The translations under genes and the position numbers were made by a program. A stretch of 64,000 bases of DNA from NCBI RefSeq assembly GCF_000014005.1, contig NC_008009.1:2666001-2730000 (forward strand). Direction: 5' to 3'. The stretch is from Candidatus Koribacter versatilis Ellin345. GTDB taxonomy: Bacteria > Acidobacteriota > Terriglobia > Terriglobales > Acidobacteriaceae. Positions 14,591-21,888 of this stretch are shown piece after piece. A model generated the notes under the pieces. The model was not told the origin of the DNA. It worked only from the letters and a program-made list of their open reading frames with translations, and did no database searches. Numbering within the stretch: the first letter of the stretch is position 1; each line of letters starts with the position of its first letter.

Positions 14591-14633
14591 TTGCAATGGG
14601 GCGAAGCCCCCAGGGGTTTGGAAGAGAGGCGCT

Positions 14634-14912
14634 GTGAAGGACCAGCTCGAAGCTTTAATTCTGCAAATGTATAAAAGCGGCATTCTGTACTCGGAAGCCG
14701 TCCGGGAATTCAAGAAACGATTTATCGTCACCGTTCTGCAAGAGAACAATGGGAACCAATGCAAGGCCGCGCGCCAGCTCGGCATGCACCGCAATACGCT
14801 CAGCCGTACGATCGCTGAGCTCAAGCTCGATGTGAAGGCCATCCGGCATGGCGGACGACGTCCCCCACGCAGCGTGACCCTCGCCGCACTGGAGAAGAAA
14901 GCCACGCGTTAG
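14634..14912 (+). CDS. Fis-type helix-turn-helix DNA-binding protein
   Basis: Small (92-residue) putative regulator. The GTG at 14634 has GAGAGG five bases upstream. Residues about 38-65 form the Fis/NtrC C-terminal HTH ('NGNQCKAARQLGMHRNTLSR'), preceded by helices as in Fis, and there is a basic tail (HGGRRPPRSV). Such 'stand-alone' Fis-like proteins occur in Acidobacteriota; targets are unknown. It is last in the purC-cvpA run and ends before a strong hairpin. Confidence 0.85.
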   Translation: MKDQLEALILQMYKSGILYSEAVREFKKRFIVTVLQENNGNQCKAARQLGMHRNTLSRTIAELKLDVKAIRHGGRRPPRSVTLAALEKKATR

Positions 14913-14942
14913 CAGTACCCTGCACTCATATTTGTGTTGCAT

Positions 14943-14979
14943 CCAAGGAGCAGCCGACGGGCTGCTCCTTGGTGCGTTT
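14943..14979 (+). terminator. Hairpin terminator after the Fis-type gene
   Basis: A perfect 13-bp stem, CCAAGGAGCAGCC (14943-14955) and its complement (14960-14972), with a GACG loop. The following tract TGCGTTT is only weakly U-rich, so it may also serve as an mRNA-stabilising end. Confidence 0.7.
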
Positions 14980-15024
14980 AACGACAGACTTCAGGAATCC
15001 CTTTCACGTCTAGCGTGTAAGTAG

Positions 15025-15085
15025 GCAAAAAGACGCGCTACGGAGGGGGAGACTGCGGGGAACGAAGTCTCCCCTCCGAACGCGT
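15025..15085 (-). terminator. Strong minus-strand terminator inside the hairpin array
   Basis: Read on the minus strand, ACGCG, CGGAGGGG and AGACT pair with AGTCT, CCCCTCCG and CGCGT (arms 15066-15085 and 15033-15054), and the stem is followed by CTTTTTGCC. No gene ends close upstream of it on that strand, so it would end a transcript starting in the non-coding region to its right. Confidence 0.6.
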
Positions 15086-15090
15086 GCCCG

Positions 15091-15133
15091 CGTTCCCCGC
15101 ACGCCTCACGGCGTTCTTCGCGGGACTTTTTTT
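15091..15133 (+). terminator. Plus-strand terminator inside the hairpin array
   Basis: CCCGC (15096-15100) pairs with GCGGG (15120-15124) around an inner ACGCC-TCAC-GGCGT stem, followed by ACTTTTTTTG. Its 5' arm can instead pair with the loop at 15055-15064, giving an attenuator-like choice. Confidence 0.6.
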
Positions 15134-15374
15134 GCGCACAACGATGCCCGCCCACCCCGGACGGGAGTGGGCTGCCTTGTGGGCCCGGTGCGCCCGATTT
15201 TCAAAGATCGCTTTTGCCGCCCCTTCGGGCGGTGACCTCGTTTGAGGCCCAGAGACACTTTCGGCTCAGTGGGCCCTGGGCTTGTCGCCCGGGCCTACTG
15301 AGCCTCATTTAGCACTCTAGCAATGGGTCTGAAAGAAAGTCTGTGACCGCCCTCACCTCTGTTTGTGATAACGA

Positions 15375-15538
15375 AAACCAAATCTTGAACACGAAGGGCC
15401 GAAGCACACGAAGGATAGATTGAATTCTTTTAGTTTGCGAATCGAATGCGGCAGAGCCTAGGAAGCGTTCCGAGCAGAAACAACCCCTCAAATTCCTTCG
15501 TGTTCCCTTCGTGTCCTTCGTGGTGAAAGATTTTGGTT
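15375..15538. repeat. 165-bp inverted-repeat (MITE-like) element
   Basis: Imperfect terminal inverted repeats of about 40 bases: the left arm begins AACCAAATCTTGAACACGAAG and runs to 15416; the right arm (15492-15538) ends CTTCGTGGTGAAAGATTTTGG. Both arms are built of repeated CACGAAGG units. The interior has no open frame of note. Related 'cacgaagg' sequences are common intergenic repeats in several soil phyla. No transposase is nearby. Confidence 0.6.
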
Positions 15539-15544
15539 CCGCAG

Positions 15545-15580
15545 AAAAGAAAAGAGCAGCCATTTCGGCTGCTCTTTTTG
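15545..15580 (-). terminator. Terminator of the exported TPR-like gene
   Basis: AAAGAGCAGCC (15551-15561) pairs over 11 bp with GGCTGCTCTTT (15567-15577) around ATTTC; T-rich tracts flank both sides, so it can work in both directions. It lies 16 bases past the stop at 15596. Confidence 0.85.
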
Positions 15581-15595
15581 CGAAACGACTGCTGG

Positions 15596-16897
15596 TTACT
15601 GCGCGGCGGGCTTCTTGTGGGCGCCTGCGGGCTTGTGGGCCGGTGCAGCGGCTACGCCGGGCAGTTCGCCGTCCTTCATGTTCATCATGAACGGATTCGG
15701 CGTGTAGGTGTCGGGAGCGGCCTGGAACTGCACGGTCGCGCCTTCCTTGGGCACCTTCGCTGCCGGAATCGGGGTTGCCATGGTGACGGTGATGTCAGCC
15801 TTGTGCGCGTCGTTGTCGTCGGTGCTGCCGGCGAGTTCGAGCTTGGTGCGCGAGGCGCTGATTACGAACGCGACGAGCTGGATCTGCTTGTCGTGGATCG
15901 TGTTCCACACCTTGTCAGCCGCATCCTGGTTGCCGGACGAAAGGACGAGCTGCCACTCGGCGAAGCTCATGTCCTTCACTTCCTTGCTCTTCACGAGGTC
16001 GGCAGCCTGCTCGGCGGGGCTCGGCGGCGGCGGCGCGGGGGCAACCGTGAAGCCTTGCGGCGGCGTCGGCGAGGCAGCGGCGGCGGTCAACAACTCCGGC
16101 CAGCCCTGCTCAGAACCGTGAAACTTGTTGTACTTTTTGCGGCCGTAGTCGCCGAGCTGTTTCTTCGCCTGGTCGTTCGGGGCGGTGGCGGCAGCGTGCG
16201 CAATGTACCAGAGACCCTTCGGGTTCACCGGGTTCGCCTCGAGATCGGCGAGCGCGAGCTGGTAGACATCGAGGAAGGAGGCGTTGGCGCCGGCGAGGTT
16301 CACGCCGTCTTCAAAGTCCTTCTGCGCGGTTGCGTAGTCCTTCGTGTTCAACGCGCCAAAGCCGGCAGCGCCGTCGAAGATGATCTGCGTTTCCTTCTTC
16401 AGCTTCTCGAAGTCAGCATCGCTGACTTCAGCGGGCTTCTGGATAACTTGTAGCGCCGTGAGGCCCTTCTGACCATACTGGGCAGCCTGGGCCGCGTTGT
16501 CCTTGTTTCCCGTCTGCAGCGCCATCATGCGGTAGGTGTATGCGAGCAGCGCGAGGGCGCGAACGTTGTTGGGCTCGACCTGGATGATCTGCTGGGCGGT
16601 CTGCAGCATGTTCTGCTGGTCGCCGGCCTGCTGGTAAGCGGCCATCAACAGTTCCATCGCGTCAGTCTTCATCACGCTATTGGGATAAGTCTGAAGGAAC
16701 GACTGCAGCGCGGTTGCCTTCGCCTTCGGGTCCGCTTGCTGCACCGCGTTTACATATGCGTTGTATTCCGCGGGGTCTTTGATTTCTTTCTTCTGTTGGG
16801 GCGCGGCAGCTTGGCCGGCGGCAAGGCTGGGTAGTGCAAGCGGCTGGATGGCGACGGTCGCCATCATTAGCAGCATCGTCACTAGCGGTTTCTTCAT
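15596..16897 (-). CDS. Exported tetratricopeptide-like protein
   Basis: Unknown function, 433 residues. ATG 16897 is chosen because AAGGAGC sits nine bases upstream and a signal peptide follows (MKKPLVTMLLMMATVAI, cleavage near 'SLAAGQ'). Residues about 40-270 are helical with TPR-like spacing (ALQSFLQTYPNSVMKTDAMELL; 'VEPNNVRALALLAYTYRMM'; 'KDYATAQKDFEDGV'). After a proline-rich linker (APAPPPPSPAE near 310) comes a beta-type domain with 'FAEWQLVLSSGNQDAADKVW' and a His/Lys/Pro tail. Likely periplasmic, perhaps an assembly scaffold. It is transcribed alone. Confidence 0.8.
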   Translation of the reverse strand: MKKPLVTMLLMMATVAIQPLALPSLAAGQAAAPQQKKEIKDPAEYNAYVNAVQQADPKAKATALQSFLQTYPNSVMKTDAMELLMAAYQQAGDQQNMLQTAQQIIQVEPNNVRALALLAYTYRMMALQTGNKDNAAQAAQYGQKGLTALQVIQKPAEVSDADFEKLKKETQIIFDGAAGFGALNTKDYATAQKDFEDGVNLAGANASFLDVYQLALADLEANPVNPKGLWYIAHAAATAPNDQAKKQLGDYGRKKYNKFHGSEQGWPELLTAAAASPTPPQGFTVAPAPPPPSPAEQAADLVKSKEVKDMSFAEWQLVLSSGNQDAADKVWNTIHDKQIQLVAFVISASRTKLELAGSTDDNDAHKADITVTMATPIPAAKVPKEGATVQFQAAPDTYTPNPFMMNMKDGELPGVAAAPAHKPAGAHKKPAAQ

Positions 16898-17252
16898 TTC
16901 GAATAGCTCCTTCAGACTCTCAGTACTCAGTACGGGATTTCGCCCCGGCGCGCTTGGCGCGATATCACTTTCGTGACGACTCATTCTACGCGAGGGGAAA
17001 AATTGCGACATTCTCCCGACCCGCCACATCTGGTTAAGGCATAAACCGGAAGTGTACGGCTCGTGAATGCTGGATTATAAAAATCCAAACGCTACAGTGC
17101 AAGTTACGTACCAGATTAGACATATCCACCCGGTTCCGAACCCGCAATTTTTAATGCCCCTAAGGTGCTTCACGTTGGTCTGATGCGCATCAGCGTCTCT
17201 CCTTTGCATCCAAGATTAAGGTTCCCCGGCTAAACTGTTCGAGGGGCCCGCC
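16898..17252. other. Divergent intergenic region with two palindromes
   Basis: No gene is seen in these 355 bases, which separate the leftward TPR-like gene from the rightward SDR. They hold an inverted repeat TGGATT-ATAAA-AATCCA (17071-17087) and the 14-bp perfect palindrome CTGATGCGCATCAG (17180-17193). The SDR ribosome binding site GAGGGG is at its right end. Confidence 0.5.
17180..17193. promoter_or_regulatory. Perfect 14-bp palindrome, possible operator
   Basis: CTGATGCGCATCAG lies 60 bases before the SDR start at 17253. Its symmetry and position suit a dimeric regulator, but no regulator is identified and only one copy is seen. Confidence 0.3.
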
Positions 17253-21409: not shown

Positions 21410-21888
21410 GAACAGGAACCCGCGGAGGATTCTACGCGCGAGGGTCGATGAGCGATAGCAGCCAGAACTACAACCTATTGTCATGCGCCGGAGTTCTTGC
21501 CACGTCTCGAAAAACGTGAGACATGGGCGCCCCTGGTCCCCCCACCCCCCTCCCCCTGTATTTTGTTTTCAGCAGCTTACGCTGTGGAAAACTCGTAAAA
21601 ATTTGAGCCCCAAGGGTTTAGAGGTATAAATTTGAAAACAAACAACTTATCTCCGGGAAACGGGACCTTGAGCCTAGAAGGTCGTCGAGCCCAGTTTGTG
21701 CCGGAGGGAGACAGGATAGGGATTTGGGTCGTGGAAAGATGTGACGGGGGATGCAGAGCGCGGTGATGGGGCGCACCGATCCCACGTTTGGTGGGGATTG
21801 ACAAAAGCGTTCAACCGCAGAGGACAAGGGGGCTAGGAGGGAGATCGAGGAAACCGGGGACGCTTTAGGCCTCCCCCTGATTCCCGTT
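21410..21888. other. Non-coding region with hairpin repeat and poly-C tract
   Basis: No convincing gene in 479 bases. It holds the first copy of a hairpin repeat (21501-21533), a C-rich tract (21534-21557), and a hairpin TTTTC...CAGC-TTAC-GCTG...GAAAA around 21565-21592. Short minus-strand open frames (21577-21977) lack ribosome binding sites and any family resemblance. Confidence 0.5.
21501..21533. repeat. Hairpin repeat, copy 1
   Basis: GTCTCG...TGAGAC stem followed by ATGGGCGCCC. It matches copy 2 at 22648-22681 at about 27 of 33 positions, with a compensating change in the stem (GTCTC/GAGAC here, GTCCC/GGGAC there). Confidence 0.6.

Follow-up and report, generated by a model that had tools for sequence, protein, structure and literature searches.

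BoxA is a tag that keeps RNA polymerase going on ribosomal RNA, and antitermination through boxA has been described for rRNA, phage nut sites and CRISPR arrays; Stringer et al. are said to have studied the boxA of CRISPR loci. In rrn leaders, boxB precedes boxA. In class II promoters of the CRP/FNR family, the activator site is centred at about -41.5. RNA regulation in Acidobacteriota is, to our knowledge, little studied.

The excerpted text of PMC10931766 names the three boxes of rrn leaders and reports that single-stranded boxA is bound by NusB-S10. BoxA is described as often lying upstream of long noncoding RNAs and is spelled GTTCTTTAAAA in L. pneumophila Lens (PMC7862264, excerpt). On rRNA, the main role of the Nus factors is given as maturation rather than antitermination (PMC4807359, excerpt), so that a boxA at the locus described here could serve RNA folding or maturation. 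Among noncoding RNA motifs, Acido-1 (RF01686) and Acido-Lenti-1 (RF01687) are tabulated for Acidobacteria (PMC2864571, excerpt). The listings and abstract openings returned by our literature searches contained no description of a family of boxA-led units.

The locus lies in a window of 64,000 nucleotides (the whole stretch of DNA analysed) from the genome of Candidatus Koribacter versatilis Ellin345, which consists of one contig of 5,650,368 bp. A chain of hairpins is flanked by two convergent ORFs, one on the plus strand (14634-14912, by eye a Fis-like helix-turn-helix protein) and one on the minus strand (15596-17029). The first-pass annotation had already described such a chain, with no gene directly downstream, and both points hold: the folding exceeds that of shuffled sequences on the plus strand (z -7.6) and on the minus strand (z -9.9), with 0 of 100 shuffles equal in each case, and the region sits between the convergent ORFs. 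The limits given there, 14943-15304, are only partly right. The hairpin at 14943-14972, immediately 3' of the Fis-like ORF, is most likely the terminator of that ORF and lies outside the element; homology to a second copy begins only at about 15029, and the conserved unit extends to about 15370, including promoter-like sites. This second copy is found at genome positions 3949918-3950211 (90% identity, query 110-401) and a third at 4258013-4258151 (92% identity, query 261-401 only).

On the minus strand, the order of the parts matches a transcription unit, namely a palindrome, a -10-like hexamer, a first hairpin (H1), a boxA-like sequence, further hairpins and a terminator. We consider that the element is probably a gene for a noncoding RNA of about 280 nt, read from the minus strand and running from about 15308 to 15027 of the window between the two convergent genes. 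The computation supports a family, conserved promoter-like and boxA-like sequences, covariation in H1 and a minus-strand terminator kept in the second copy. The parts are as follows, where R2 is a model of the 5' module built from 21 sister loci.

15364-15368, minus strand: distal CRP/FNR-like half site (TGTGA in plus letters, TCACA in minus letters), from the sequence and the R2 match
15342-15357, minus strand: proximal CRP/FNR-like palindrome, TGTGA-CCGCCC-TCACC in plus letters, from the sequence and the family alignment
15314-15319, minus strand: -10-like hexamer TAGAGT inside TGCTAGAGT, from alignment to the family
15263-15304, minus strand: 5' hairpin H1 (GGCTCAGT...ACTGAGCC), from covariation across seven distinct sequences
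15236-15247, minus strand: small hairpin CCTC-GTTT-GAGG (plus letters), from folding; near-identical across the three close copies and thus of little independent evidence
15217-15232, minus strand: small hairpin CCGCCC-CTTC-GGGCGG (plus letters), from folding; identical across the three close copies, with the same consequence
15197-15209, minus strand: boxA-like GATCTTTGAAAAT, one of the 40 boxA spellings of the genome
15134-15195, minus strand: long hairpin of the RNA body, from folding; stem altered in the second copy
15082-15104, minus strand: hairpin GCGTGC..GCACGC, with a loop complementary to the terminator loop, over 11 nt in this element and over 9 in the second copy
15027-15085, minus strand: predicted intrinsic terminator of the minus-strand RNA, from folding, with T5 at 15031-15027; kept in the second copy

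In the genome, whose rrn leader and 16S are masked, the boxA pattern GNTCTTTGANAAY has 40 matches and the reversed control 3. GATCTTTGAAAAT at 15209-15197 is among these spellings and differs from the published GTTCTTTAAAA by a G and at the second base. The tmRNA gene carries the spelling GCTCTTTGACAAC about 30 nt before its 5' end (L111, G000:C1:2598425-2598437). By our own reading, a promoter-like module precedes boxA at 26 of the 40 sites. At two boxA sites (L102 and L109), the sequence upstream is of another kind (CTGTCAAGACCCC...), and the body that precedes a convergent gene is very short.

For the alignment of the promoter-like module (A4), 21 of the 40 boxA sites were used; those left out are this element with its two copies, the tmRNA leader and 15 further sites. 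Paired CRP/FNR-like sites are the rule across these 21 loci. Little or no variation is seen at GTGA and CAC of the first site, at TCAC of the second (the proximal site of this element) and at the A, T and G of a TAnnnTG-like hexamer, and the consensus spacing places the centres of the second and first sites at about -41.5 and -63.5. In this element, the proximal palindrome is likewise centred at about -41.5 relative to a start that is predicted, from the position of these motifs, at about 15305-15308. The distal half site lies 22 bp further upstream, centre to centre, and its other half is poor. A scan for plain consensus sigma-70 promoters gave zero promoter-like sites on either strand.

The unit resembles class II promoters of the CRP/FNR family in its palindrome GTGA-N6-TCAC, centred near -41.5 and accompanied by another site 22 bp upstream of it. 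It differs from them in that only one half of its distal site is conserved; the regulator is putative. Like rrn and CRISPR boxA leaders, the element has boxA near the 5' end of a presumed untranslated RNA, with a hairpin before it. Unlike these, it is a short dispersed unit with a CRP/FNR-like promoter and no rRNA or crRNA, and Nus binding is putative. Acido-1 and Acido-Lenti-1 are also noncoding RNA motifs of Acidobacteria, but the element has no gathering-score match to them (window and 15 family loci), nor one at E<=5 in 14600-15700. No Rfam covariance model reached its gathering score in the window, in agreement with the first-pass annotation, which could not match the region to RNase P, tmRNA, SRP or 6S RNA; the highest score on the element (14600-15700) was that of RyfD, at 22.5 bits against 42 needed. 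A known Rfam RNA was rejected on the same grounds, with zero gathering-score matches in the window or in 15 family loci.

Transcription, the activator, Nus binding and the role of the RNA are what we infer from this arrangement. A CRP/FNR-family activator at about -41.5, helped by the weaker upstream site, would start transcription near 15308, and the nascent RNA would fold H1 and then expose boxA. BoxA would recruit NusB-S10 to RNA polymerase, as on rrn leaders, and an untranslated RNA would be made without Rho-dependent termination up to the strong intrinsic terminator at 15085-15027. In many of the sister units, different bodies follow this same 5' module. The RNA itself would most likely be a trans-acting or protein-binding sRNA. 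Small RNAs as opposed to a leader, one of the options of the first-pass annotation, agree with the minus-strand reading; the plus-strand terminator is unsupported.

Covariation in relatives, which the first-pass annotation had named as a check, was found for H1 and for H1 only. The alignment comprised nine places matched by a model of the close copies (R1), as seven distinct rows from two species. In it, 88% of cells are paired (reached by 0 of 500 shuffles) and the covariation score is reached in 1 of 500 shuffles. Four pairs show double changes, a number reached by 50 of 500 shuffles, and controls in which the pairing was slid scored far lower. Two wobble pairs (three cells) favour the minus reading and one other position favours the plus reading; one A-C mismatch on the minus reading is a G-U on the plus strand. 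H1 alone therefore does not decide the strand. R1 was built on a plus-strand reading of the copies, which was dropped since boxA and the promoter motifs lie on the other strand; it matched 3 of the 9 places in opposite orientation, because H1 is palindromic.

Beyond H1, several stem positions of the second copy are changed in a compensating way. Its minus-strand terminator keeps the stem and the T-run, with two double compensating changes by eye. The distance from activator site to -10 hexamer is shortened by 14 nt in the second copy, which would put the promoter of that copy out of register. This element and its two copies are without the 3' domain of the sister units and have bodies of their own, which end in an intrinsic terminator in two of the three.

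R2 gave at least 59 matches in its own genome at E<=0.01, 38 of them outside the 21 training loci, and at least 68 at E<=1; the scan scored 150 of 1341 first-look candidates, so that these counts are lower bounds. In the second species of the genus, it gave at least 18 matches (best E 6e-18), with 18 candidates scored per relative genome. Over the window alone, the best match was this element (15280-15383, minus strand, E 0.00057). In the genome-wide scan, the element reached only E 0.051, because its hairpin differs from the small one of the family. The covariation of this small hairpin is only weak, since 43 of 500 shuffles reach its score. The element is multi-copy, intergenic and palindromic like REP or MITE-like repeats, but unlike them it carries promoter-like sites, boxA and a terminator. 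In the first-pass annotation, a match to an ordinary multi-copy repeat was to count against the proposal; a multi-copy family was indeed found, though not an ordinary repeat.

Neighbours and motifs were counted at the best 42 of the 68 R2 matches, of which 21 are training loci, with a simple ORF caller of our own. None of the 42 was overlapped by more than 40 bases by a called ORF. At 26 loci the next ORF is encoded on the opposite strand, at the other 16 on the same one, and at least 26 units are therefore not leaders of the next gene; the excess over one half is not significant (p about 0.08, own estimate). A G-rich box of the GGGGGAGGGGG type is present in 35 of the 42 loci (0.5 loci in mononucleotide shuffles), and an AT-rich motif precedes it in 29 (0.7 loci in mononucleotide shuffles). 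The 35 loci with the box (e.g., L101, L130 and L173) have two to three direct repeats of the AACTCCTTTG..GAAnATTTTGC type, and also GGGGGAGGGGGTACC. An alignment of these 35 showed no consensus RNA structure in the 3' repeat domain. CUCCUUU in the repeats resembles the 16S 3' tail. The window itself holds a second unit of the family at 21540-21781 (minus strand) with CRP-like sites, direct repeats and a G-rich box. The R2 match within it (21693-21781) is the second best in the window, and boxA is not recognisable there.

In 200 genomes of the family, R2 had matches at E<=0.01 in 11, the second species included. Several of these are weak, and some weak matches (e.g., L143, L145, L150 and L154) are by eye not full units. 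R1 had matches in only 2 genomes among 200 relatives. Among 61 genomes searched, an excess of boxA spellings over the control is seen in several genera of the family, though not in every genome; it is highest in one genome of another genus (G030), with 144 spellings against 6 for the control. Its loci (L198-L225), by eye, combine a GATATC-type palindromic operator, a hairpin, boxA and sometimes a G-rich box. The hairpin before boxA covaries there in an alignment of 7 of 10 loci, the three left out being two with no obvious hairpin (L207 and L213) and one with a hairpin of another shape (L210). Three loci of a further genome (G019; L205, L211 and L217) have, by eye, a hairpin, boxA, repeats and a G-rich box, and the module was not apparent at the boxA matches inspected by eye in genome G002. 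The exact hairpin-plus-boxA pattern was found in four stretches of GTDB genomes, a search from which records of or near our own genome may be absent. Two are in one Acidobacteriaceae MAG and two in Clostridia, the latter at about chance level (own estimate about 2).

We tentatively suggest, as a possible reading, that these loci form a previously undescribed class of dispersed boxA-led noncoding units in this Acidobacteriota family, about 60 in this genome and perhaps more than 100 in G030. The operators at their promoters may differ by lineage, and most of the units in this genome may end in conserved direct repeats and a G-rich box. Together they may act as a genome-wide RNA network in which Rho-resistant polymerase sets out from gene ends, often heading for the 3' end of the neighbouring gene. 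Dozens of small units sharing a promoter type and boxA would extend boxA antitermination to a whole RNA regulon, and the units would be predicted to respond to one activator and to depend on NusB.

The main rival, which we regard as rather unlikely, is a dispersed mobile or decaying element, in which the 5' module comes from cassettes around DUF5763-like zinc-finger genes and the gene-less copies are solo remnants rather than RNA genes. The assignment to DUF5763 was obtained for a protein of the second species (E 1.5e-4), at 21.6 bits against a cut-off of 26.3. All seven genes in our genome similar to it have an R2 match upstream on the same strand, with E values of 2.5e-5 to 0.005 for five of them but of 0.57 and 0.71 for the remaining two. 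This speaks for such cassettes. So do the 3' ends with a G-rich box and common direct repeats but no consensus RNA structure, and the 14-nt promoter deletion of the second copy. Positions also seem to turn over: of nine R2 loci of the second species (from at least 18 matches, compared together with four R1 loci), one shares a flanking gene with the best 42 of our own genome. However, flanks of about 1500 bases per side were compared as DNA, so that shared positions are underestimated. Moreover, the promoter-like motifs, boxA and H1 have been retained although the spacers between them diverge, which is unexpected of decaying copies, and a compensated terminator is kept in two of the three copies.

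The reading as a minus-strand RNA gene also has to be weighed against a plus-strand or two-strand terminator module for convergent transcript ends, switching between a pseudoknot and two terminators. The first-pass annotation had described two opposed terminators whose elements can pair. Both hairpins are present between the convergent ORFs, and 15055-15064 is the exact reverse complement of 15091-15100, as stated there; the full match is in fact 11 nt. Complementary 10-mers at such a distance occur at a mean of 0.11 per dinucleotide shuffle, and the observed count is reached by 11 of 500. The minus-strand terminator (15033-15085, followed by T5) stands, but the plus-strand T-run CTTTTTTTG has become CTTAAAAATG (TTAAAAA) in the second copy, and with the plus-strand terminator itself unsupported, so is a symmetrical switch. 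A consensus terminator scan listed only 15578-15550 and missed both terminators, which may fall outside its rules for loop and tail. Each neighbour has its own terminator-like hairpin at a shorter distance (14943-14972 and 15578-15550), and the strand indicated by the promoter-like sites and by boxA is the minus strand. We therefore find this module very improbable. On the minus strand, the complementary stretches lie in the loops of the terminator hairpin and of the hairpin next to it, and their complementarity could tune termination or pair two RNAs; its 9 nt in the second copy are weak evidence because these copies are closely related paralogs.

A short leaderless peptide gene is hardly credible: the ATG at the predicted start opens 35 codons (15308-15201), and an ATG stands directly before the hairpin in 9 of the 21 aligned sister loci, several with ATG-TGG-GGC-ATT-CCC, in which a WGIP-like codon run follows the ATG, but it is missing there in 12 of the 21, boxA is by eye met in different frames, the frame contains an indel in the third copy, and the corresponding hairpin in G030 covaries as RNA.

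Just beyond the element, the stretch at 15391-15540 of the window contains an inverted repeat of the CACGAAGG type that is present again beside the second copy and resembles another dispersed repeat.
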